Source: Deltaproteobacteria bacterium
Lineage (GTDB): Bacteria > Desulfobacterota > Binatia > JACPRU01
NCBI GenBank assembly: GCA_016189835.1
Contig: JACPRU010000027.1
Location: forward strand, 1-51,873
Reading direction: 5' to 3'
DNA: 51,873 nucleotides
A program made the translations under genes and the position numbers. Positions 8,115 through 29,338 of the stretch are shown piece by piece. Within the stretch, counting starts at the first letter, position 1; each line of letters begins with the position of its first letter. The notes under the pieces were generated by a model. The model was not told where the DNA came from. It saw only the letters and a program-made list of their open reading frames with translations, and ran no database searches.

Positions 8115-10148
8115 ATGGGCTACACCATCGACATCGATACCGGCGGCACCTTCACCGACGGCTTCTTCTCCGACGAACGCCGCGGCGCGCGCGCCGTCAA
8201 GGTGCGCACCACGCCGCACGACCTCACCGTCTGCTTCCTCGAGTTGATCGAGGCGGGTGCCGCCGCTTACGGCGTCGCCACCGAGGCGCTGCTCTACGAC
8301 ACCGACATCGTCCGCTTCTCGAGCACCATCGGCACCAACACCATCATCCAGCGCGACGGCTCCAAGCTCGGCCTGCTGGTCAGCCGCGGCACCGCGGCCC
8401 TGGCGCCGACGTCCGATCCCGCGGGCAAGGCGCCGCTGGTCGAACCCGGCATGGTGCGCGAGGTCGATGCCGAGATGTCGCCGGCGGGACAGTCCGTCCG
8501 CGAGCCCGACGCGGCGGTCACCCTGGCCCTGGCGCAGAGCCTGATCGACCGGGGCGCCCGGGCTCTGGTCGTGGCGCTGGCCGGGTCGGAGCGCAATCCG
8601 GCGCACGAGCGCGCCGTGCGCGAGCTGATCAAGAGCGAGTATCCCCGCGACTTCCTGGGCTCGATCCCGGTGTTCCTCGCCTCCGACATCTCGTTCCGTG
8701 CCGGCCACGCGGAGCGCATCAACGCCGCCGTCATCAGCGCCTACATCCACGCCAAGCTGGCGCGCCTGCTCTACCAGGCGGAGGAGGAGCTGCGGCAGCG
8801 CCACTACCGGCGCGCCCTGTTCATCGCCCACAACAACGGGGCGGTGGCGCGAGTGGCCAAGACCCGCGCGATCGCCACCTACAATTCCGGCCCCGCCGCC
8901 GGGCTGTTCGGCGCCCGTGTGATCGGGCAGCTGTACGGCGCCGGCGACCTCATCTCGATCGACATGGGCGGCACCTCGTTCGACATCGGATGCGTCCGCG
9001 GCGGCCGTGAAAGCCACACCCTCGAGCCCGACGTCGAGGGCTTGCGCTGCAATCTGCCGATGAGCGCCATCCGCGCGCTCGGCGTCGGCGGCGGCTCGAT
9101 CGCGCGCGTCGTCGACGGCGAATTGACGGTGGGACCGAAATCGGCGGGCGCGGTGCCGGGCCCGGCGTGCTTCCGCCTCGGCGGCGGGGACGCCACGGTC
9201 ACCGACGCCAATCTGATCCTCGGCGTGCTCGACGCCGACTACTTTCTCGGCGGCGCCATCAAGCTCGGCGCCGACGAGGCGGCGGCCGCGATCCGGCAGA
9301 ACGTCGCCGAGCCGCTCGGCGTCGCCGTCGAAGAGGCGGCGCGGCGCATCCGGCGGATGGCGGACGCGCGGATGGCGGCGGGGGTGGCGGAGACCCGCAA
9401 GCAGTTCGGCGCCACCGCGCCGCTGCTGGTGGCCTACGGCGGCGGCGGCGCCATGCACGCCTGCGACATCGCCGCCGCGGCGGGGCTGAACCGGGTGGTG
9501 ATCCCGCGCTTCGCCGCGGTCTCATCGGCGTTCTCGCTGTCGCTGATGGACGTCGGCCACCTCTACCATCGCGCGCCGTACGTGCCGCTCTCGGATGGCC
9601 TCGAGGCGCCGGCCCTGGCCGCCGCCATCGAGTCGATGCGCGGCGAAGCGGCCCGCGACATGCGCGGCGAGGGCTTCGCGGGCGCGGAGCGGAGCGCCTT
9701 CCGGGTCGACGTCTTCGTCGGCGCCGAGGGCGGCGGCGAAGTCATCGTCACGGCGCCTGCCGACTTCTTCGCCAGCGCCGCCGGCATTCGCCAGTTCGAC
9801 GCGCAGGCTCGCGAAGCCATGCGGGTCGCCGAGAGCCGCGCGCTGACCATCACCGCGGTCTCCCTGCTGGTGGCGGCGGCGGTGCCGCACTTCGCCTTCA
9901 CGCCTTCGCCGGCGGCTTCCGGATCGCCGCGGGAAGCGCGCAAGGGAACGCGCGCGCTGTTCCTGGATCAGCGCCAGGGAGCGCGGAAGACTCCCGTGTA
10001 CGACCGCGCCAAGCTCGGCAACGGGCACCGCCTGGACGGGCCGGCGATCGTCGAGTCGGACCAGACGACGATGCTGGTTGCCGCCGGGTGGCACTGCCGG
10101 ATCGACGCCTACGACAACGTGGTTCTGGAGCGGGGGGTACGGTCATGA
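8115..10148 (+). CDS. HyuA-type subunit (N-methylhydantoinase A / acetone-acetophenone carboxylase family)
   Basis: A 677-residue ATPase subunit of the hydantoinase A/acetone carboxylase beta family. The phosphate-binding motif IDTGGTFTDGFF is at the N-terminus, the second ASKHA-type motif SIDMGGTSFDIG is mid-protein, and GVGGGSIARV follows. ATG 8115 is preceded by GGAGAAGG. Its TGA stop overlaps the ATG of the next gene (ATGA at 10145-10148), which shows a translationally coupled operon. Relatives phosphorylate a ketone or cyclic amide, with ATP, before ring opening or carboxylation. The neighbouring gamma subunit argues for a carboxylase rather than a hydantoinase. Confidence 0.9.
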   Translation: MGYTIDIDTGGTFTDGFFSDERRGARAVKVRTTPHDLTVCFLELIEAGAAAYGVATEALLYDTDIVRFSSTIGTNTIIQRDGSKLGLLVSRGTAALAPTSDPAGKAPLVEPGMVREVDAEMSPAGQSVREPDAAVTLALAQSLIDRGARALVVALAGSERNPAHERAVRELIKSEYPRDFLGSIPVFLASDISFRAGHAERINAAVISAYIHAKLARLLYQAEEELRQRHYRRALFIAHNNGAVARVAKTRAIATYNSGPAAGLFGARVIGQLYGAGDLISIDMGGTSFDIGCVRGGRESHTLEPDVEGLRCNLPMSAIRALGVGGGSIARVVDGELTVGPKSAGAVPGPACFRLGGGDATVTDANLILGVLDADYFLGGAIKLGADEAAAAIRQNVAEPLGVAVEEAARRIRRMADARMAAGVAETRKQFGATAPLLVAYGGGGAMHACDIAAAAGLNRVVIPRFAAVSSAFSLSLMDVGHLYHRAPYVPLSDGLEAPALAAAIESMRGEAARDMRGEGFAGAERSAFRVDVFVGAEGGGEVIVTAPADFFASAAGIRQFDAQAREAMRVAESRALTITAVSLLVAAAVPHFAFTPSPAASGSPREARKGTRALFLDQRQGARKTPVYDRAKLGNGHRLDGPAIVESDQTTMLVAAGWHCRIDAYDNVVLERGVRS

Positions 10149-10474
10149 AGGTCCGGATCACCGAATGTCTCGACATCGATCTCGAGACCGAGACCTGGTG
10201 CTGCAACCGCTGCGGCCATCCCCTCCACGGCGCCCGCGACGACTACAAGAAGGGCTGCCTGATCGCCGAGCGCGACCCGGACGAGGTCTATCCGCCCGAG
10301 CTGAAGGGTCAGGAGTACGGCTTCCGGCCCGACCCGAACTACAGCCGCCTGATCGAGTTCTACTGTCCCAACTGCGCGGTGCTGATCGAGAGCGAGAATC
10401 TTCCGCCCGGCCATCCGCTGACCCATGAGCTGGAGATCGACATCGACGCGCTCAAGCGGCGACACGGGAGGTAG
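10145..10474 (+). CDS. Acetone carboxylase gamma-subunit-like protein
   Basis: A 109-residue small subunit resembling the acetone carboxylase gamma family. It begins MKVRITECLDIDLETETWCC and contains two CxxC pairs: CNRCG near residue 20 and CPNC near residue 80. The pairs are spaced like a zinc-binding site, the type recalled for small subunits of acetone/acetophenone carboxylases. The ATG overlaps the stop of the upstream HyuA gene, and 39 bp separate it from the second HyuA start. A gamma subunit between two HyuA-type genes is what separates this locus from a plain hydantoinase operon. Confidence 0.87.
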   Translation: MKVRITECLDIDLETETWCCNRCGHPLHGARDDYKKGCLIAERDPDEVYPPELKGQEYGFRPDPNYSRLIEFYCPNCAVLIESENLPPGHPLTHELEIDIDALKRRHGR

Positions 10475-10513
10475 CTCGTGCGGGGATCGTATGCGGGCGG
10501 GGAGGCGATCGCC

Positions 10514-12652
10514 ATGAATGCCACGATCGGGATCGACGTCGGCGGAACGTTCACCGACTTCGCGCTGCGTGACGGCAACGGCGTGGAGCGGACGCACAAG
10601 ACCTTGACCACCCACTACGATCTGTCGGTGGGCTTCATGAAGGGAATGCGCCGTCTCGCCGAGCACTCGGGCATGGATCTCGCGGAGTTCCTCGGCCGGC
10701 TCGGCTCGATCCGCTACTCCACCACCATCGGCACCAACGCGCTGATCGAGCGCCGCGGCCCCAAGCTCGGGCTGATCACCACCGCCGGCTTCGAGGACAC
10801 GATCCACATCGGTCGCGGCCGCAGCTGGGCGGACGGCTCCTCGCCGGAAGCGATCGCCGACATCGCCCGCATCCGCAAGCCGCCGCCGCTGGTCGCTCCC
10901 GAGATGGTGGTGGGGCTGCGGGAGCGCATCGACTACGCCGGCAAGGTGCTGTCGCCGCTCACCCGCGAGGAGATCATCGAGAAGCTGCAAGTCCTCGTCG
11001 ATCGCGGCGCGCAGGGCTTCGCCGTCTGCCTGCTGTGGTCGTTCGTCAACCCGACCCACGAGCGGATGGTCAAGCGCGTCATCGAGGAGGAGTATCCCGA
11101 GGACTATCTGGGCTCGATGCCGGTGATGCTGTCGAGCGACGTGTCGCCCAAGGCGGGCGAATACGCGCGCATGGCGACCACCATGGTCAACGCCTACATC
11201 CACGGGATCATGGCCGACGATCTCAATCGCCTGGGCAGCGAGCTGGCCGACGCCGGCTTCACCAAGCCGCTGACGCTGGTGCACAACACCGGCGGCACCA
11301 AGAAGGCGTCGCGCACCCGGGCGGTGCTCACCCACAACGCCGGCCCGGTCGCCGGGCTCTACGCGGCGAGGGCGCTCGGTCGGGTGATCGGCTCGCCGAA
11401 CGTCATCTTCACCGACATGGGCGGCACCTCCTTCGACATCGGTCTGGCGACGGCCGGCGAGATCCACACCTACGACTTCATCCCGGTGCTCGACCGCTGG
11501 CGCAGCAACATTCCGGCCGTCGAGGTCAAGTCCATCGGCGCCGGCGGCGGCTCGATCGCGTGGGTGAACGCGCTGATGTCGAACGCCCTCGAGGTGGGGC
11601 CGCAATCCGCCGGGTCGATGCCGGGCCCCGCCTGCTACGACCAGGGCGGGTCCGAGCCCACCGTCACCGACGCCGATCTGGTGCTCGGCTACTACAATCC
11701 GGACAACTACCTGGGCGGCTCGCTGCTGCTGGATGCGGACCTGAGCCGTCAGGCGGTGGAGGACAAGATCGCCCGGCCGCTGCGCGTCGACGTCCACGAG
11801 GCGGCGCACCGCATCCGCCGCCTGGTCGACGCTCGCATGGGCCAGGAAGTGTTCAACGAGGTCGGGCTCAAGGGCCACGACCCCCGCACGTTCACCCTGT
11901 TGGCCTGCGGCGGGGCCGGCGCCGCCCACGCCTGCGGCTTCGCTGCCTACGTCGGCGTGTCCCGGGTGGTGGTCCCCGACGCTTCGTCGGTGTTCGGCGC
12001 CTACGGCGCGGCGCTGATGGAGACCAGGGAGGTGTGGGAGCGCTCGCGCGCCATCCGCATCTTCCAGTGGGCCGGGCAGAGGTACTCGACGGATTGCGAC
12101 GCCTTCAACTCGGTGGTCCGCGACCTGCGCGACCGGGCGGCGCGCGATCTGCGCCTGGAAGGATACCGCGACGATCAGATGACGTTCACGCTCGACCTGG
12201 ATATGCGCTTCGGCAGCCAGTACACGCTGACCAAGATCCGCGCGCCCAAGCTGGAAGTCGCCAGCGCCGACGATTTCCGCCGGCTCTGCGACCTGTTCGT
12301 GCAACGCTATTCCGAGCTGTACTCGCCGGAATCCACCTTCCTGGCGGGCGGCGTCAACATCGAATGCTTCTCGCTCACCGCGTCGGTGCCGAGGGACGTC
12401 CATCTGCCGCCGCCGCAGCCGCTCGGTGACGCCGAGCCGCGCGCCGACGCCCGGCGCGGTGCGCGGCCGGCGTACTGGTCGCCGGCCGAAGGGATGCGCG
12501 ACACGCCGGTCTACGATCTCGCCGCTCTGCTGCCCGGCAACCGCATCGCCGGCCCGGCGCTGATCGAGGGCGCGCAGACGACCTACGTCATCGAGCCGGG
12601 ATGGCGCTACGAGATGGACGGCTTTCGCAACGGCGTGCTGACCCGGGCCTGA
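10514..12652 (+). CDS. Second HyuA-type subunit (hydantoinase A / carboxylase family)
   Basis: A 712-residue paralogue of the upstream HyuA-type subunit. The N-terminal ATP motif is IGIDVGGTFTDFALRDG, the second motif is FTDMGGTSFDIG, followed by GAGGGSIAWV. I chose ATG 10514, placed 8 nt after a GGGGAGG site. A GTG at 10478 in the same frame also has a ribosome site and would add 12 residues. A pair of unequal HyuA subunits (677 and 712 residues) recalls the alpha/alpha-prime arrangement of acetophenone carboxylase. It is followed, 37 bp later, by the HyuB-type gene. Confidence 0.9.
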   Translation: MNATIGIDVGGTFTDFALRDGNGVERTHKTLTTHYDLSVGFMKGMRRLAEHSGMDLAEFLGRLGSIRYSTTIGTNALIERRGPKLGLITTAGFEDTIHIGRGRSWADGSSPEAIADIARIRKPPPLVAPEMVVGLRERIDYAGKVLSPLTREEIIEKLQVLVDRGAQGFAVCLLWSFVNPTHERMVKRVIEEEYPEDYLGSMPVMLSSDVSPKAGEYARMATTMVNAYIHGIMADDLNRLGSELADAGFTKPLTLVHNTGGTKKASRTRAVLTHNAGPVAGLYAARALGRVIGSPNVIFTDMGGTSFDIGLATAGEIHTYDFIPVLDRWRSNIPAVEVKSIGAGGGSIAWVNALMSNALEVGPQSAGSMPGPACYDQGGSEPTVTDADLVLGYYNPDNYLGGSLLLDADLSRQAVEDKIARPLRVDVHEAAHRIRRLVDARMGQEVFNEVGLKGHDPRTFTLLACGGAGAAHACGFAAYVGVSRVVVPDASSVFGAYGAALMETREVWERSRAIRIFQWAGQRYSTDCDAFNSVVRDLRDRAARDLRLEGYRDDQMTFTLDLDMRFGSQYTLTKIRAPKLEVASADDFRRLCDLFVQRYSELYSPESTFLAGGVNIECFSLTASVPRDVHLPPPQPLGDAEPRADARRGARPAYWSPAEGMRDTPVYDLAALLPGNRIAGPALIEGAQTTYVIEPGWRYEMDGFRNGVLTRA

Positions 12653-12689
12653 AACCGTCCCGGTTGCGGAGCGCGCAGGGAGGACGACG

Positions 12690-14768
12690 ATGTCTTCGAC
12701 GGCCTACGGACGGGACCACGAGGTCGTGCAGCGGTTGCGCCCCGAGCCGCCGTCGGCGGAGGAGCTGGCCGCCGACGAGCTGGTGAGCGGCGTCGAATTC
12801 GACATCTTCAGGCACAAGATGAAGATGGTGGCGCAGGAGGGCAAGGAGACCACCATGCGCCTCGGCGCGTCGACGGGGATGCGCTGGGGCGACGTCGCTT
12901 TCGGCATCTTCACCGCCCAGGGCGATCTCGCGGTATGCGCCACCGGCATCTATTTCCACGCCCTGCTCGGCCAGCTGCCCATCAAGTTCCTGGTCAAGCA
13001 CTGGCGGAACGACCCCTCGGTCGGCTGCAACCAAGGCGACAGCTTCTTCTACAACGATCCCTTCTACGGCGGCGTCCACGCCGCCGACATGGGTCTCGCC
13101 ATCCCGATCTTCCACGCCGGGCGCTTGATCTGTTTCGCCGCCGCCGCGGTTCACACCGGCGAGTGCGGCGGCACCGACCCGGGCGGGCTCGGCAACGGAT
13201 CGCGCTCGCGCTACGACGACGGCATCCTGATTCCGCCGCTCAAGGTCGGCGAGGGCTACCAGCTCCGCGAAGACATCCTGACCATGCTGGCGACGATGAA
13301 TCGGGACCCGCGCACCATGATCCTGGACATCAAGGCGCGGCTGGCGGCGGTGCGCGTGGTGGAGCGGCGCATCCAGGACCTCATCGCCGAGAAGGGCGCG
13401 GCGTTCTTCGTCGGCGCGCTGCGGCGCATCCTGACGGTGACGAGCGAGGCGGCGCGGCGCAAGGTCAGCCGGCTGAACGACGGCGTGTTCCGCCAGGCCC
13501 GCTTCATCGACACCCTCGGCGTCGAACCGGGCCTGATCAAGGTCATGCTGACGGTGCGGAAGAAGGGCGACAAGATCTTCCTCGACTTCGAGAACACCTC
13601 GCCGCTGATCCCCGATCGGCCGCTCAATTGCTACTTCCAGGGCGCGGTGGCGCTGGCCGCGCTGTACCTGTGCGGCTGGTTCTTCTACGACCTGCCGGCC
13701 AACAACGGCCTGCTGGAAGCGGTGGAATGGAAGTTCCCCGACGACGCTCTGGTCAACGCCAAGGGCGACGCCACCACCAGTCTGGCGCCGCTTTCCATGA
13801 ACACGGTCTACCAGGCCATGTTCCAGTGCGGCGCGCGCATGACGTTCTCTTACGATCCCGAGCGCGCGGTGGCGTCGTGGTTCACCGCCTTCGCGGTGCC
13901 GTTCTACGGCGGGCTCAACCAGCACGGCGATCCGGTGGCCGACGTCACCCCGGAGATGAACTCCTGCGGCGCCGGCGCCTGTCGCGACCGGGACGGCGTC
14001 CATTCCGCGGGCTCGTTCTTCGCCAGCATGTCGGATTGCTCCGATGTCGAGACGAGCGAGGCCGACCGGCCGTTCGTCTACACCTTCCGCGGCCACTTCG
14101 ACGGCTCCTACGGCCACGGCAAGCATCGCGGCGGCTCGGGCACCGGCTTCGGCATGATGGTCTACGAGGTGCCGGCGATGCACATGGGCGGCTTCGGCAA
14201 CGGCTCGCGCCATCCGGCCACCCCGGGCGTGTTCGGCGGCGGCGCCGTGCCTCCGGTGTTCATCCGCACCGTGCGCGGCAGCAACTACCGCAGCCTGCTC
14301 GCCGAACGGGCGCAGCGGCCGCGCAACTACGGCGAGCTGTACCGGCCGGAGAATCCGGAGACCGGCACGCCCGTCTACCACGACATCAGCATGCCGATCG
14401 AGCCGCTGAACGAAGGCGACACGTTCTACGTCTGCACCGGTGGCGGCGCCGGCTACGGCGACGCGCTGGAGCGCGATCCCCGGGCGGTGCTGCAGGACCT
14501 GCGCGACGGCGTGGTCTCGGCGTGGGCGGCGCGCAACGTCTACTTCGTCGCCACCGACGAGCATCGGCTGCGGGTGGACGAGGAGGAGACGGCGCGGCTG
14601 CGCGCGGCGGAGCGGGCGGCGCGCAAGCGCCGCGGCAAGAGCTGGGAGGCGTTCCATGCGGAATGGAACCGGAAGCGGCCGGCGCCGGAGGTGATCAGGG
14701 GCTACGGCAGCTATCCCGACCCGCTCGACGGCATGGCGGCGCAGGACCGCCCGACCGCCGCGGCGTGA
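12690..14768 (+). CDS. HyuB-type subunit (N-methylhydantoinase B / carboxylase alpha family)
   Basis: A 692-residue large subunit of the hydantoinase B/acetone carboxylase alpha family. Family features are the N-terminal EFDIFRHKMKMVAQEGKETT, YNDPFYGGVHAADMG with its metal-binding-type His and Asp residues, CFAAAAVHTGECGG, and the C-terminal GGGAGYGDALERDP. ATG 12690 has AGGGAGG upstream. In acetone/acetophenone carboxylases this subunit carries out the carboxylation after phosphorylation of the ketone. It is the last gene of the HyuA-gamma-HyuA-HyuB row and is followed by a GC-rich hairpin. Confidence 0.91.
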   Translation: MSSTAYGRDHEVVQRLRPEPPSAEELAADELVSGVEFDIFRHKMKMVAQEGKETTMRLGASTGMRWGDVAFGIFTAQGDLAVCATGIYFHALLGQLPIKFLVKHWRNDPSVGCNQGDSFFYNDPFYGGVHAADMGLAIPIFHAGRLICFAAAAVHTGECGGTDPGGLGNGSRSRYDDGILIPPLKVGEGYQLREDILTMLATMNRDPRTMILDIKARLAAVRVVERRIQDLIAEKGAAFFVGALRRILTVTSEAARRKVSRLNDGVFRQARFIDTLGVEPGLIKVMLTVRKKGDKIFLDFENTSPLIPDRPLNCYFQGAVALAALYLCGWFFYDLPANNGLLEAVEWKFPDDALVNAKGDATTSLAPLSMNTVYQAMFQCGARMTFSYDPERAVASWFTAFAVPFYGGLNQHGDPVADVTPEMNSCGAGACRDRDGVHSAGSFFASMSDCSDVETSEADRPFVYTFRGHFDGSYGHGKHRGGSGTGFGMMVYEVPAMHMGGFGNGSRHPATPGVFGGGAVPPVFIRTVRGSNYRSLLAERAQRPRNYGELYRPENPETGTPVYHDISMPIEPLNEGDTFYVCTGGGAGYGDALERDPRAVLQDLRDGVVSAWAARNVYFVATDEHRLRVDEEETARLRAAERAARKRRGKSWEAFHAEWNRKRPAPEVIRGYGSYPDPLDGMAAQDRPTAAA

Positions 14769-22104: not shown

Positions 22105-22638
22105 CTACGGGCCCGCGCGGGCGAGCGGCTCGTACTTCAGCACCTCGATCAGCAGAACGCGCCGCCGGGCGGTGCCCACGGTCCGCCGGTAGCGCACCAG
22201 CCGGCCGGTTTCGGCCTCGAATTGCGCCCTGAGGTCGATCGGCGGGGTGTCTCGGACGTGGGGCACGTCGGCCAAGCCCAGGTCCCTGCGCAGCAGGCGG
22301 AAAAGCCCCGACACCGAGTAGTCCTCGGTCTCGCCGGGCGAAACGGAGCGGCCGTCGCGTTCGGTGCTGGCAACCTTGCCGCCCGCCACCACCACGTCGT
22401 AGACGGCAGGATTGGTGCGAGGGGCTCTCACGCGGACGACGAGGTGGTAGGAATCCGACCCGTGAGCTTCCCAGCGCCGCTCGGCCGCCGCCAGCGCGCT
22501 CTCGGTCAACGGCTCCATGGGGGGCGCCCCGAGTAAGGAACAGCCCGCCAACAGCAGCAGCGCAAGGCCTCCCCACGCCGCTTTCCCCCGGTGGCTCGTT
22601 GCCCGTCGGCTGCCTTTCCTCTTGCCGTCGAAACTCAC
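22105..22638 (-). CDS. Predicted lipoprotein, DUF6174-like
   Basis: A 177-residue lipoprotein. A basic N-terminus is followed by the hydrophobic stretch GGLALLLLAGCSLLG with a lipobox (LLAGC, Cys33). The mature part (SYHLVVRVRAPRTNPAVYDVVVAGG, later SVSGLFRLLRRDL) resembles small periplasmic proteins of the DUF6174 type, of unknown function. The start is GTG at 22638 with AGGAAGG upstream. No ATG is available in the frame near the leader. It shares a terminator region with the convergent phosphofructokinase gene. Confidence 0.72.
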   Translation of the reverse strand: MSFDGKRKGSRRATSHRGKAAWGGLALLLLAGCSLLGAPPMEPLTESALAAAERRWEAHGSDSYHLVVRVRAPRTNPAVYDVVVAGGKVASTERDGRSVSPGETEDYSVSGLFRLLRRDLGLADVPHVRDTPPIDLRAQFEAETGRLVRYRRTVGTARRRVLLIEVLKYEPLARAGP

Positions 22639-22943: not shown

Positions 22944-25358
22944 CTACTTCAACGCGCGCAGGATCTCCTCTTCGTGGGCCGCCCAATCCTTGTCGTAGAC
23001 GGTCCACTCGCCCTCCTCGACCTCCAGCTCGCGCACCATCTTGGGTCCCCTCGACAGCACGAACCAGACCAGAGGCAGCACGCCGCCGAACAGGAACACG
23101 ACTCCTCCGATCACGCGCATCCAGGTCAAGGTCGCGAACACGGGTCCGGTCACGAACTCGTTGGTGCGGGCGTACCAGTATCCGTGCGTGAGAACGGCCG
23201 CCAGCTGGTAGAGTCCGACCGGGAACAGATCGAGCGTCATCATCAACACGATTCCGATCTGCAGCGACCAGAACGTCCGCCTGAGGAGCGCCTCGTTCCA
23301 CGCGAGCCTCGGGAACAGATGCTGGCAGCAGAACAGCAGGCCCGCCAGCGCCACGTTCCCTTTGACGCCGAACATGGCGGCGTGCGCGTGATTGCCCGTC
23401 AGGTAGGTTCCGTGCTCGAAGTAGTTGACGATCGGCAGATTGATCAACGAGCCGAACACACCCGCGCCGACGATGTTCCAGAAATTGACGGCGAGGACGA
23501 ACAGCCACACGCCCTCCATGACGAACTTCTGCTTGCCCTCGACGAGATGCTCGCCGGCCCGGATCTTCTCGTTGCGCATGCGCCACGCATCCAGCGTGAT
23601 CAGCAGCAGCGGCAGCACCTGCAGAGTGGAGAAGACGCTTCCCAGCGCGATGATCCCCGTCGGCTTGGCGATCCAGTAGAAGTTGTGTGAGATCCCGACG
23701 GTCGCGGTGATGAGGAACATCATCACGGCCAGGAAGATGACCCGCTCCGCCATCGCCCGGTTCAGCAGGCCCATCTGAACCAGCATGTAGCCGACGATGC
23801 AGGTCGTGAACACCTCGAACGTCACCTCGACCCACATGTGGACGGTCATCCAGCGCCAGTAGTCGGCGATGGCGAAATTGCTGGTGGTGGTGGCCCCGAG
23901 CCCGAAGAACAGGAACATCACCATGATTCCGCTGCCGTAGAACAACCAGGCGGGGACCGACCACATGTTCTGCTTGGTGATCCACGGCCGCACGCCGCGG
24001 AAGATGATCGTGATCCACAGCACGAAGGAGGCCAGCATGAGAATGTGCCAGAATCGGCCGAGCTCGAGGAACTCCCAGCCCTGGCTGCCGAACCAGTAGG
24101 CCGCCGTGTCGCTCAGGTATCCCATCTGCCCGAAGTAGATTCCGAACAGCGCTCCCGCCCCCACGATGACGCACAGGGTGAACAGCAGATTGATCAGAAA
24201 GCGCTGTCCGTTCGGGACCTTCGAAAGCCTGGGGAGGAAGAAGATGGTGTAGCCCACCCAGCACATGAAGAACCAGTAGATCTGCAGGATGGTGTGGTAC
24301 GCTCGCACCACCGTGAAGGGCAGCGAGATGCCGAAGACCTGGACGATCGCCTCGCCCGGTCCCCCGCCGACGAAGTCCTCGGCGCTGAGGATACCGGCGA
24401 GAACCTGAACCAGGAACAGGATCACTGCAAAGGCGAAGAACTTGTACGTCGCTCTCTGCGTGGGGCGAACGAAGTCGTATCCTTTTTCCAGCTCGATCGT
24501 GGTGAGCGTGCCGCCGTTGGCCCCGTTGAACGGATCCCCGGGAAGCGCCTTCATCTCGCCGTAGACGTAGAGGACCAGCATGGCGCCCGCGAACAGCGCC
24601 AGGATCGAGAGGAAGCTCCACAGCACAGTCGGCATCGTCGGGTTGTTGCCGGCCTCGGGATCGTAGGGCCAGTTGTGCGTGTAGCTGTAGGTCTCGCCCG
24701 GTCGAGCCGCCCCAGCGACCCAGCCGCCCCAGAAGAAGTATCCGGTCAGCGCCCTCAGGTCTTCCGGGTCGGTGATGTAATTATCCAGTCTGAATTTGGC
24801 CGGATAGGTGGGGTCCGTGAACACCCGCTTGTAATGGGTCTGCAGCTCCTCGTAGGCGTGAATCTGAGCGTCGTTGATGCGGATCACGCCGGCGGCCGCG
24901 TCGTAGCCGTTCTGCTTGATCTCCCGCTGCACCCGCACGGTGATCGCGTCCTTGTCGCTCTGGGTCAGAGGACGCTCCTTCTCCATCTGCCGCTCGTAGA
25001 AGGACCGCATCCCGACCACGGTTCGGTGCAGGGCGTCGGCCGTGAAATCCGGCCCGCGTTCCGCTCCGTCGCCCCAGAACGAGCCCCAGGACATCAGGCC
25101 GCGGATGTGAAACAGCTCCTGTCCCCGCCGGATCTGCTCGATGGGAACCACCGGTTCGCCGCTGGCGGCGGACACCATGGCGACGCGCGGAGGAGCGCCG
25201 CTGTACGTCCACGAGCCCAGGGCGATCAGGCCGACGATGCTGATGCCGGAGACGATCGCGAACTGGATGAACCAGTTCGGCTTGGCCAACAGCCACGTCC
25301 CGAAGTTGCGCCGTGACTTCGAACTGCCGTTGCGGCGGTTCACGTTGCTCTTCTGCAT
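22944..25358 (-). CDS. nod: Nitric oxide dismutase-like protein (qNOR homologue lacking quinol site)
   Basis: An 804-residue integral membrane haem-copper-superfamily protein that aligns end to end with quinol-dependent NO reductase (qNOR) but differs at key sites. The qNOR quinol motif HYxxE is here A-E-D-F-V-G (327-331), so both His and Glu are lost, and the Asp in the VPD segment is Gly (R748-V-I-G-G). The FeB pair GHHYY is G-I-S-H558-N559-F-Y-W. The qNOR motif HLWVEG is H507-MWVEVTFE, keeping both Glu. Haem ligands remain (H355 in RAYHTILQ; GNHAHAAMFG near 657). These changes match those reported for NO dismutases of Methylomirabilis and relatives (2 NO to N2 + O2). The N-terminus has one helix and a roughly 160-residue soluble domain; about 13 more helices follow. 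ATG 25358 has GGGGAGGG upstream. By spot count the GC content is slightly lower than in flanking genes. Confidence 0.85.
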   Translation of the reverse strand: MQKSNVNRRNGSSKSRRNFGTWLLAKPNWFIQFAIVSGISIVGLIALGSWTYSGAPPRVAMVSAASGEPVVPIEQIRRGQELFHIRGLMSWGSFWGDGAERGPDFTADALHRTVVGMRSFYERQMEKERPLTQSDKDAITVRVQREIKQNGYDAAAGVIRINDAQIHAYEELQTHYKRVFTDPTYPAKFRLDNYITDPEDLRALTGYFFWGGWVAGAARPGETYSYTHNWPYDPEAGNNPTMPTVLWSFLSILALFAGAMLVLYVYGEMKALPGDPFNGANGGTLTTIELEKGYDFVRPTQRATYKFFAFAVILFLVQVLAGILSAEDFVGGGPGEAIVQVFGISLPFTVVRAYHTILQIYWFFMCWVGYTIFFLPRLSKVPNGQRFLINLLFTLCVIVGAGALFGIYFGQMGYLSDTAAYWFGSQGWEFLELGRFWHILMLASFVLWITIIFRGVRPWITKQNMWSVPAWLFYGSGIMVMFLFFGLGATTTSNFAIADYWRWMTVHMWVEVTFEVFTTCIVGYMLVQMGLLNRAMAERVIFLAVMMFLITATVGISHNFYWIAKPTGIIALGSVFSTLQVLPLLLITLDAWRMRNEKIRAGEHLVEGKQKFVMEGVWLFVLAVNFWNIVGAGVFGSLINLPIVNYFEHGTYLTGNHAHAAMFGVKGNVALAGLLFCCQHLFPRLAWNEALLRRTFWSLQIGIVLMMTLDLFPVGLYQLAAVLTHGYWYARTNEFVTGPVFATLTWMRVIGGVVFLFGGVLPLVWFVLSRGPKMVRELEVEEGEWTVYDKDWAAHEEEILRALK

Positions 25359-25802: not shown

Positions 25803-25908
25803 GGGATGGCGACGGTCGTGACCGGAGACAGTCATGGCGGGCACTGACGTGTATTCGAGCATCAAGCAGCGATGGCGCATCCTGCGGCGTACGATGCGAG
25901 GGGCAGTG

Positions 25909-26256
25909 ATGGCGGACACTGAGATCTATTGGGACGGCCAGTCCGGGAAGGAGTACCCGTACTGGATTCACCGGATCGGGACGTACTTCGACGACGAGCC
26001 GGGCAACTACATTTACGCGAAGGAAGTCGAGCCGGGATCCTGGGTAGCGCTCTACATCGGTCACACGCCCAGCCTTCAAGACCACCTCGCGGATGCGGAG
26101 AAGGAAGCGTGCGCGAAGCGCAATGGTGCGACGCACGTGCACGTGCACACCACGCCCGGCGGCGAGAGCCGGCAGGCCGCCGAAGCGGCGGACTTGATTG
26201 CGAGGTGGCAGCCGGCCTGCAACGACCGAGGGGAGCCGGCTGAGGACCCCGCCTAG
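25909..26256 (+). CDS. GIY-YIG-like small domain protein with two possible starts
   Basis: A 115-residue soluble protein resembling a minimal GIY-YIG fold. GNYIYAKEVEPGSWVALYIG is in the place of the GIY and YIG strands, GATHVHVHTT follows, and EAADLIARWQPACN matches the end with its usual Glu and Asn. The canonical Arg of nucleases is not evident, so a catalytic role is uncertain. Two starts are possible: ATG 25909 (GAGGGG upstream) or ATG 25834 (GGAGA upstream), which adds 25 residues. The DNA around the two starts is a direct duplication: MAGTDVYS versus MADTEIYW. It ends 11 bp from the convergent PAS regulator stop. Confidence 0.6.
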   Translation: MADTEIYWDGQSGKEYPYWIHRIGTYFDDEPGNYIYAKEVEPGSWVALYIGHTPSLQDHLADAEKEACAKRNGATHVHVHTTPGGESRQAAEAADLIARWQPACNDRGEPAEDPA

Positions 26257-26267
26257 CCGCGGCCGCG

Positions 26268-27188
26268 TCAGCGTTCCGAGGCGCGCGCTCGCCGATGGTG
26301 GCCGTCCGCCGACCCCGTGGCTTCCGCGCGGGGTCCCGGCAGCAATTCGGCCTCGATGCGGGTCGCCGTCTCCTGGCGCGCGATGCGGTTCACGTAGGCC
26401 ACGGCCTCGAGCCGCGTGTGCACCTTGAGCTTGGCGAAGATGCTCTGGATGTGGTTCCGCACCGTCGCCTTGCTGATGTAGAGTTGCTCGGCGATCGCCG
26501 CCGTGCTCGCCCCGGCCCGCATCAGCGTGATGACCTGCAGCTCCCGCGGGCTCAGCTCGCCCGGGGGCAGGGCGTCCTCGCTGGTGGTCAGCTTGAGCTT
26601 GGTCTGAGCCAGTTGCTGGCGGACGAGCAGCTCGATCTGATGGGACGTCGTCACGTCGCGAAAGAGATGAACGATGGTCGGCGGCCGGTCGTCGTGGCGG
26701 GACGGAACCGCCACGCAGCTCACGTCGATCCACAGCGGCTGCCCCGTCTTGGTCCGGGTAGCCATGTCGAAATGCTCGACCAGGTCGCCGCCGTGCAGCA
26801 GCGTCTTGATCGGACAGGGCCAGCCGCAGATGCGATTGCCGTTACTGTCGCAGCCGCCGAACACCTCGCCGCAGAGCCGTCCGACGACCTGTTCCGCGGG
26901 ATAGCCGAGCATGGCCTCGGCGGCCCGGTTCCAGAACAGAATCTCGCCTCGCGATCCGCTGACCCACACGCCGTCCGCGGTGTTCGCGAACAGCCGGGAG
27001 ACCTCCGCGAGCGAGTCGGGGGACGGGCTGGCCTCCGCCCCCGGGGCCTTCTCGGCGGGCTCCGAGCGCCGTGCGGGCTCCTTGCCGGCAGAGCGGGCGA
27101 GCGCGGCGTCCTTGCGTGCTCCGTCATGGAGCCGGCGGCCCGTCCGCCGGGTCTCCGCCGCACGCTGCGATCCGTTGCTGCGACTCAT
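26268..27188 (-). CDS. PAS domain-LuxR-type DNA-binding regulator with Cys-rich insert
   Basis: A 306-residue transcription regulator. A charged, disordered N-terminus (1-57) precedes a PAS domain (about 58-180: ANTADGVWVSGSRGEILFWN) and a C-terminal LuxR/NarL helix-turn-helix (about 211-270: LSPRELQVITLMRAG, ISKATVRNHIQSIFAKL). There is no receiver domain and no membrane segment. The PAS domain carries C106, C113, C121 and C125 (GGCDSNGNRICGWPCP), a spacing that could hold an Fe-S cluster or sense redox state or NO. ATG 27188 starts the gene, which follows the ferredoxin by 119 bp as the last member of the diiron operon. It may control that operon or nod. Confidence 0.85.
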   Translation of the reverse strand: MSRSNGSQRAAETRRTGRRLHDGARKDAALARSAGKEPARRSEPAEKAPGAEASPSPDSLAEVSRLFANTADGVWVSGSRGEILFWNRAAEAMLGYPAEQVVGRLCGEVFGGCDSNGNRICGWPCPIKTLLHGGDLVEHFDMATRTKTGQPLWIDVSCVAVPSRHDDRPPTIVHLFRDVTTSHQIELLVRQQLAQTKLKLTTSEDALPPGELSPRELQVITLMRAGASTAAIAEQLYISKATVRNHIQSIFAKLKVHTRLEAVAYVNRIARQETATRIEAELLPGPRAEATGSADGHHRRARASER

Positions 27189-27307: not shown

Positions 27308-27703
<396 letters not shown>

Positions 27704-27736
27704 GGGCACGTCTCCCTGCGCCGGCCAGGTCGCGGC

Positions 27737-28213
27737 CTACGCGGCGGCGGGACTCGGCACTTCGGCGGCGAGGTCGAAGAACAGCTGCAGCGAGCCGTTG
27801 TAGCGGTAGAAGAGGTCCTCGCGGAGCTGATCGTTGGAGGAGAGCCGGGTGGCGCCGCTCAGCACCAGCGTGTTGATCGTGTGCGCCAGGTCCGCCTTGC
27901 CGTTGCGCCGCACGTTCTCCAGCATCTCGCGCCACACGGCGTCGGGGGCCTCCAGGACGAAATCGGGATCGAAGCGCTCGAGGTCCTGCGCGGTTTGCAA
28001 CGCCACCACGCGCTCACACTCGAAGGTGTCGAACACCAGCCCGGTGGCGGCGGGAGCGCCCGCCGCGGCGTCGGTGGCGCGGATCGCGAAGCGCGTGTCC
28101 ACGAAGCCGAGATCGCGAAACTCCTCGGCGTGACGCGTGGTGGCGTCCCTCAGGCTCTCGAACCACTCGGCGGAAAGCGCCCCGCCCGATCCTGCGGTCT
28201 TTGCGTCGTTCAT
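27737..28213 (-). CDS. SCP2-like small protein in diiron operon
   Basis: A 158-residue soluble protein. The C-terminal part (DPDFVLEAPDAVWREMLENV, HTINTLVLSG, YNGSLQLFFDLAAEV) resembles the SCP2 sterol-carrier fold, which binds acyl chains, sterols or other hydrophobic ligands. I am only moderately sure of this. ATG 28213 has GAGGAG 8 nt upstream. It lies 33 bp after the diiron gene and 33 bp before the ferredoxin, so the three are probably co-transcribed. A lipid-binding helper would fit a hydrophobic substrate for the diiron enzyme. Confidence 0.7.
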   Translation of the reverse strand: MNDAKTAGSGGALSAEWFESLRDATTRHAEEFRDLGFVDTRFAIRATDAAAGAPAATGLVFDTFECERVVALQTAQDLERFDPDFVLEAPDAVWREMLENVRRNGKADLAHTINTLVLSGATRLSSNDQLREDLFYRYNGSLQLFFDLAAEVPSPAAA

Positions 28214-28246: not shown

Positions 28247-29338
28247 TCACATGGGCAGCTGGGCGGGCAGGCGACAGAGCTGACGGCGCTCGCTCACTCC
28301 CGCCCGATCACAGCGGCCGAAGTACTCGTGCACCATCTTCTGCCAGATCCCGCCCACCGCCGGCTTGGCGTCCTTCATCCCCTCGATCCCTCCGCCCGCC
28401 AGAATCATCAGCGGCTCCAGGAACTCGGGCACTCCGAACATCGCCAGCATCATCCCCTCGCCCTTGGACAGGATGTGGTTCACCTCTTCGCGCGCCGCGC
28501 GCGGGTTGGGGTGGTTCTCCAGGTAGTACTTGAGATGCATCGTGCCGTAGGACACGTGGCGCGCCTCGTCCTGCATGCACATCCGGAAGATCCGCTTGTC
28601 CACGTCGGTCTTGCCGATCAGCTCCCCGGCCCGGAACAGCGACAGCACCATCCCCTCGCCCAGCACGTGCATGAAGGAGGAAGCCATCGAGTAGGTCGGC
28701 GCCTCGATGATCGCCTGCAGCGCGTCCTCGGCCTCCTTGGTGGCGCGCATCAGCCCCCCGCCGTTGACCAGGGCCCGCTTGCGAAAGACCTCGAGGTGGC
28801 GCGCCTCGTCGATGACCTGCGAGGCCAGGAAGCACTTCACCTCGTGGTAGTTCTGGTGGATCTGGTGCATCCACTTCGCCGGCAGATCGGCGGCGATGAA
28901 TTCCACCTCGGTCAGCAGCGTGCACACCTGGCACATCGCCCGCTCCAGATCCTCCGGCAGCTGGCGCAGCTCGTGCCAAGGAATGTCCGTCGTGGCGTTC
29001 CACTGCCGCGTCTTGGCCTCTTCGTAGAGGCTCGCCGCGTTCACCGACCACACCTCGTACTTGTTGTTCAGCCGGTAGCCGAGCGAGGGCAGATCCGCGT
29101 CCAGCTCCGCGCCCCGCGGCGCCATGCCGGTCCCCGGCAGCGAGTGCTCCGGTACCTCGCCGTAGGAGCCGACGTTGATGTCGTTCAGCAGCACCCCGCG
29201 CTTGGTCGGCTGCACGCGAACACCCCACTCCGTCTTGGTGTTCTCGAACCAATCCAAATCGAACTTCCCCTGCGACAGCTTCTCGAAATACGCCGCCGTG
29301 CGCGGCGCCATCTCCGTTTCGCCAAACTTGCGGGCCAT
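28247..29338 (-). CDS. Ferritin-like diiron protein, probable O2-dependent oxygenase
   Basis: A 363-residue soluble protein of the ferritin-like diiron superfamily. Both halves of a 4-Glu/2-His site are visible: E144 or E146 (LLTEVEF) with E178-x-x-H181 (IDEARHLEVF), and E228 (VLGEGM) with E258-x-x-H261 (QDEARHVSYG). This full set is used by oxygenases, desaturases, AurF-type N-oxygenases and R2-like proteins. The substrate cannot be told. ATG 29338 has AGGAGG upstream. It heads the operon with SCP2-like, ferredoxin and PAS-LuxR genes, and a sigma-54-type promoter is seen about 90 bp before the start. The nearby NO dismutase would be a source of O2 under anoxia. Confidence 0.85.
   Translation of the reverse strand: MARKFGETEMAPRTAAYFEKLSQGKFDLDWFENTKTEWGVRVQPTKRGVLLNDINVGSYGEVPEHSLPGTGMAPRGAELDADLPSLGYRLNNKYEVWSVNAASLYEEAKTRQWNATTDIPWHELRQLPEDLERAMCQVCTLLTEVEFIAADLPAKWMHQIHQNYHEVKCFLASQVIDEARHLEVFRKRALVNGGGLMRATKEAEDALQAIIEAPTYSMASSFMHVLGEGMVLSLFRAGELIGKTDVDKRIFRMCMQDEARHVSYGTMHLKYYLENHPNPRAAREEVNHILSKGEGMMLAMFGVPEFLEPLMILAGGGIEGMKDAKPAVGGIWQKMVHEYFGRCDRAGVSERRQLCRLPAQLPM

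Follow-up and report, generated by a model that had tools for sequence, protein, structure and literature searches.

A putative nitric oxide dismutase gene near a diiron protein gene in the class of UTPRO1 (Candidatus Binatota)

Does the large membrane protein encoded near the middle of a 51,873-bp contig (hereafter the window) belong with the quinol nitric oxide reductases (qNORs) that it resembles or with the putative nitric oxide dismutases (Nods), and what might its host do with O2 made in this way? Nods are an already known and widespread kind of protein, with genes reported from many phyla. What looks new in the window is the neighbourhood of the gene, together with the lineage that carries it. 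We combined residue-level comparison, phylogeny, and structure prediction with a survey of gene neighbourhoods and genome content in the host and its relatives.

Sequence, fold, and active site of the putative Nod

The nod gene (22944..25358, minus strand) opens with ATG, contains no internal stops, and encodes an 804-residue, qNOR-like multi-helix membrane protein. Its codon composition is that of a real gene (GC3 0.90 versus GC2 0.42), and no frameshift was present in any of four nod-bearing genomes. Pairwise dN/dS was about 0.13–0.19 against three relatives of the same class, one Acidobacteria metagenome-assembled genome (MAG), and Methylomirabilis, so the protein is being maintained, with purifying selection acting on an intact gene. 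Scans for promoters and terminators yielded no useful signal. Pfam returned only COX1 and NorB cytochrome-c-like matches and NCBIfam none, which makes it plausible that automatic annotation would hide the gene, as a sequence-only reading of the window had warned.

That reading had also aligned the protein with qNOR over its length, in agreement with the match of residues 39–767 to Geobacillus qNOR (3ayf, E 7e-131). In a phmmer search of the PDB, 3ayf was the top match and cNOR lay far behind; the AlphaFold model (pLDDT 83.9, pTM 0.86) likewise found 3ayf as its best Foldseek match (TM 0.86/0.91). The window protein thus shares length and predicted fold with 3ayf, and it keeps the haem-ligand histidines (H507, H558) save one FeB ligand. 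By contrast, the quinol ligands, FeB His560, Glu581, Asp746, and Leu509 are all replaced, and overall identity to qNORs is about 30–38%.

Mapping the residue columns onto 3ayf numbering located these differences precisely. At the quinol site, H328 is replaced by E327, E332 by G331, F336 by A337, and D746 by G752; the first two fall in the segment E327-D-F-V-G331 (24366..24380, minus strand) and the last at 23103..23105 (minus strand). In the catalytic region, L509 is replaced by M508, H560 by N559, and E581 by Q580, whereas H508 (H507), E512 (E511), H559 (H558), and E516 are kept. The codons support both key changes: in the FeB ligand pair H558-N559 (23682..23687, minus strand) the asparagine is read from AAC at 23684-23682, and the glutamine replacing the catalytic glutamate (23619..23621, minus strand) from CAG at 23621-23619. 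Ettwig et al. (2012, PMC3413370) give three marks of putative NO dismutases: a His-to-Asn change, a Glu-to-Gln change, and a lost quinol site. All three occur in the window protein, which has neither the His328/Glu332/Asp746 quinol site nor the HH/Glu581 catalytic site of a qNOR. Every residue named in the sequence-only reading proved correct, although the list had overlooked the change of E581 to Q580.

Inspection of the aligned columns, as that reading had recommended, showed Met509/Asn560/Gln581 in 81/81 Nod-side sequences, the window protein sharing the pattern, and His560/Glu581 in 36/36 qNOR-side sequences, none of which had N560/Q581; the active-site pattern is therefore not due to chance. 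Columns 328, 332, and 746 are weaker evidence than 509, 560, and 581, because His328 is kept in many Bacteroidota Nod-like proteins and a few qNORs vary at these three positions. Because of the Bacteroidota proteins, we rejected loss of the quinol histidine as a universal mark of Nods. The YTHNWP motif was also dropped as a diagnostic, being present in a true qNOR (L016). Three qNOR-side proteins (L029, L031, and L032) carry D746H or H328S yet retain an intact HH pair and Glu581; they are possibly qNOR variants that use another donor.

Among about 85,000 species genomes scanned, 228 relatives were recovered, of which 80 were kept. They originated from Acidobacteria, Myxococcota-labelled MAGs, Methylomirabilis, alpha-, beta-, and gamma-Proteobacteria, Planctomycetota, Bdellovibrionota, and Bacteroidota. 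The scan patterns (YTHNWPY and QIYW[FM]FM) favour Nods, and YTHNWP can therefore not be counted as independent evidence. In a maximum-likelihood tree (quick search, SH-aLRT) of 114 proteins, comprising 78 Nods and 36 qNORs and leaving aside the published intermediate qNor-related clusters, the Nod/qNOR split had a support of 100; the tree carries a long-branch warning, and the split rests on more than the tree. The window protein fell inside the Nod clade, not within the canonical qNORs, where a placement would have contradicted the dismutase assignment. It grouped with the proteins of G019, G027, and G042 (support 97), then with Acidobacteria Nods (96), and this assemblage joined a group containing Methylomirabilis (100). 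Columns and tree together led us to reject a canonical qNOR identity. Tree, active-site columns, fold, and conservation clearly assign the window protein to the putative Nods and not to the qNORs, as the sequence-only reading had proposed.

Named relatives illustrate this position. Polyangiaceae bacterium UTPRO1 and its relatives (G042, G027, and G019), members of the same class, encode Nods 81–83% identical to that of the window. The nearest Nods outside the class are those of Acidobacteria RIFCSPLOWO2 and NC_groundwater MAGs (L053–L057, L060; 75–83% full-length identity). The Methylomirabilis Nod (L063, isolate Ru_enrich_MO2) is 71–76% identical and likewise has E/G/A at the quinol columns and H-M-E-H-N-Q in the active site. 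Methylomirabilis has two nod copies near pmoA-C (PMC13386854), unlike the window, which has a single copy with a diiron protein, a ferredoxin, and a PAS-LuxR regulator nearby. The Acidobacteria MAG MEKU01 also carries two differing copies (L053, L057), recalling the Methylomirabilis pair. Two viral-database contigs were among the loci recovered. One (L049; IMGVR_UViG_3300035492_000331, 231 kb) has a nod-like gene at 10001-11578 with 55% identity, without the N-terminal 95 residues and with an in-frame loss of residues about 436–602 that includes the catalytic core; ribonucleotide-reductase-like and DHFR-like open reading frames were recognized by eye on the contig, and the gene is either a phage relic or an assembly chimera. 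The other (L051; IMGVR_UViG_3300024339_000480) ends inside a nod-like gene that is 60–62% identical.

The gene neighbourhood and the diiron protein

Downstream of nod lies a gene for a small lipoprotein (22105..22638, minus strand; 177 aa, lipobox-like LLLAGC), homologues of which directly follow nod at five other loci (L054, L055, L058, L059, and L203; 56–71% identity); several of the Acidobacteria nod loci share this gene. Upstream is a small divergent gene (25834..26256, plus strand; 140 aa, no Pfam match) whose homologue adjoins nod in the Acidobacteria MAG L054 (69–75% identity). It is followed by a PAS-LuxR (GerE) regulator (26268..27188, minus strand; Pfam PAS 3.9e-12, GerE 3.3e-16) with homologues in nod loci L057, L064, and L085; LuxR regulators near nod have been reported earlier for M. 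oxyfera and HdN1 (cited in PMC13386854). Beyond the regulator, a minus-strand run with gaps of 27–33 bp encodes an FdxA-like ferredoxin (27308..27709; its NCBIfam FdxA match, about 1e-21, does not reach the curated cut-off), a small protein of 158 aa with no family assignment (27737..28213), and a ferritin-like diiron protein with an R2lox-like fold and an E...EARH...E...EARH pattern (28247..29338). Homologues of the small protein, here called the small partner, adjoin the diiron gene at six further loci (L059, L058, L203, L088, L090, and L202).

All 4/4 nod-bearing genomes of the class have the diiron pair beside or near nod. G042, G027, and G019 resemble the window in carrying the pair and the lipoprotein gene at the nod locus; the diiron gene, the small-partner gene, nod, and the lipoprotein gene follow one another there on a single strand, separated by about 13–43 bp (13–23 bp between nod and the lipoprotein gene). 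In contrast to this tight four-gene operon, the pair in the window lies 2.4 kb upstream of nod, with the ferredoxin, PAS-LuxR, and small divergent genes in between. No diiron pair was recognized beside nod in the Acidobacteria loci L053–L057 and L060. Two loci of another Nod sub-clade, L088 and L090, do have related diiron genes no more than a few kb from nod.

For the diiron protein, no Pfam or NCBIfam family was found over its cut-off, with RNR R2 matching at E 0.0044 only and the NCBIfam R2lox model scoring 28.6 bits where its cut-off is 194. Its AlphaFold model, of moderate confidence (pLDDT 72), predicts a ferritin-like fold with paired EXXH motifs, and the best Foldseek match was R2lox (E 1.8e-4), followed by a phenylacetate-degradation-like protein and RNR R2. 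Fold and motifs are thus shared with R2lox, whereas identity is about 14%, and an extra N-terminal region, a dedicated small partner, and the absence of a curated family set the protein apart. It is probably an O2-activating oxidase or oxygenase.

In each of the three UTPRO1-genus genomes, the nod-adjacent gene is the sole diiron copy at E below 1e-50. Across the class, the diiron family occurs in 61/148 genomes, nearly all of them without nod, and we therefore rejected the idea that it is specific to Nod. The class-wide homologues form a large uncharacterized ferritin-like family. In nod-less genomes they often stand as tandem pairs (e.g. G003:C19:5711-8159 and G006:C1:1584588-1586766). The window genome itself has a second diiron protein with a small partner on contig 12 (L202:7912-9552), in a cluster with acyl-CoA dehydrogenase-like and other catabolic-looking genes. 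According to a 2026 survey (PMC13386854), the genomes examined, none of which were known methanotrophs, showed no clear O2-consuming system next to nod, and the diiron pair is worth considering as a consumer of Nod-derived O2 for this reason. Since nod-less relatives commonly carry the family as well, coupling between nod and the diiron protein is only a lead.

Proposed function and proposed source of nitric oxide

The window genome (2.6 Mb, 74.8% complete) encodes NirK and NosZ, both over cut-off, a cNOR NorB (best PDB match 3o0r_B, E 1.5e-117), and another haem-copper oxidase. Neither a cd1 nitrite reductase (nirS) nor narG over cut-off was found in this 74.8%-complete genome; narG is present in all three UTPRO1-genus genomes. 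With NirK, cNOR, and NosZ present, NO can be made and also removed classically, so that a need for detoxification does not by itself readily explain why Nod is kept. Two of these enzymes, cNOR and NosZ, also count against our preferred explanation, as they allow NO disposal without Nod.

We consider it probable that the protein truly belongs to the putative Nod family, converting NO supplied by NirK to N2 and O2, and that the O2 is used by the cell. Family membership, the site changes, conservation, and the co-occurrence of nirK are direct observations, from which we infer the O2 step. A qNOR-derived Nod of this kind would have no quinol donor and altered proton and FeB chemistry. NirK would supply NO, the haem b3/FeB site would take up two molecules, and these would be rearranged, with no net input of electrons, to N2 and O2. 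The O2 could then serve the haem-copper oxidase in respiration or O2-activating enzymes in oxygenation; the best candidate consumer in this lineage would be the R2lox-like diiron protein encoded nearby, together with its small partner and the ferredoxin.

Alternatively, the protein could be a divergent NO reductase, or an enzyme of NO detoxification, whose product is still N2O and whose electrons come from a donor other than quinol, O2 production being an assumption; we regard this as unlikely. Such an enzyme would fit the fold shared with qNOR and the NO- or stress-responsive regulators found near nod in several lineages, with a PAS-LuxR gene in the window; elsewhere, the presence of LuxR or NsrR regulators close to nod has been interpreted as a sign of NO detoxification (PMC13386854). 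As of 2026, no Nod had been isolated or biochemically characterized, and there are opposing results on NO dismutation by Nod-bearing organisms (PMC13386854), so that O2 production is an inference for the family as a whole. A reductase is nevertheless at odds with the loss of quinol ligands, the Glu-to-Gln change, and the FeB His-to-Asn change common to the whole clade, and with a genome that already has cNOR and NosZ. Studies of Methylomirabilis cultures (reviewed in PMC3413370) support O2 formation at the level of the organism.

Host lineage, possible gene transfer, and a possible use of Nod-derived O2

The window genome belongs to the class of UTPRO1 and to a different family from G042. UTPRO1 is an order of Candidatus Binatota (PMC8262859); NCBI files Polyangiaceae bacterium UTPRO1 (G042) in Myxococcota. 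Judged through this one relative, the window probably comes from a member of Binatota. PMC8262859 portrays Binatota as aerobic methylotrophs and degraders of alkanes that all possess an aerobic respiratory chain, and leaves nitric oxide unmentioned. Elsewhere in the window (10478-14768), a hydantoinase/oxoprolinase A and B pair belongs to a catabolic region that also encodes CoA-transferase III and acyl-CoA dehydrogenases.

Only 4/148 genomes of the class carry nod. The dS of the window gene to that of the Acidobacteria MAG L054 (0.61) does not exceed the values to its class relatives (0.66–0.87), and L054 has counterparts of both the lipoprotein and the small divergent gene. These observations suggest that the nod cassette moved horizontally. 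The same rarity and low dS would be expected of a recently transferred or misbinned fragment standing outside the organism's physiology, a reading we find very improbable: the 51.9-kb contig has normal coding composition, nod shows no decay, and nod, the diiron pair, and the lipoprotein gene recur in three further members of the class. Transfer is plausible in itself, yet would not make nod non-functional. That the gene is a canonical qNOR altered by sequencing errors or quinol-site drift, as its best PDB match might suggest, can hardly be entertained. It is already contradicted: identical changes recur in three relatives with independent assemblies and in about 75 further Nods, the tree position outside qNOR has full support (100), and the gene is under purifying selection.

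Within the preferred reading, Nod followed by use of its O2 in the cell, a more specific arrangement is conceivable, though we hold it rather doubtful: in this lineage nod, an uncharacterized two-component diiron oxygenase, and the ferredoxin may form one functional unit in which Nod-made O2 is used directly for oxygenation in anoxic, nitrite-fed cells. If so, a dedicated module for intra-aerobic metabolism would exist outside the methanotrophs. The window adds a lineage, the class of UTPRO1 in Candidatus Binatota, to the putative makers of dark oxygen. How Nod-derived O2 is used is the larger question, for which the operon of diiron protein, small partner, nod, and lipoprotein offers a concrete, testable candidate.
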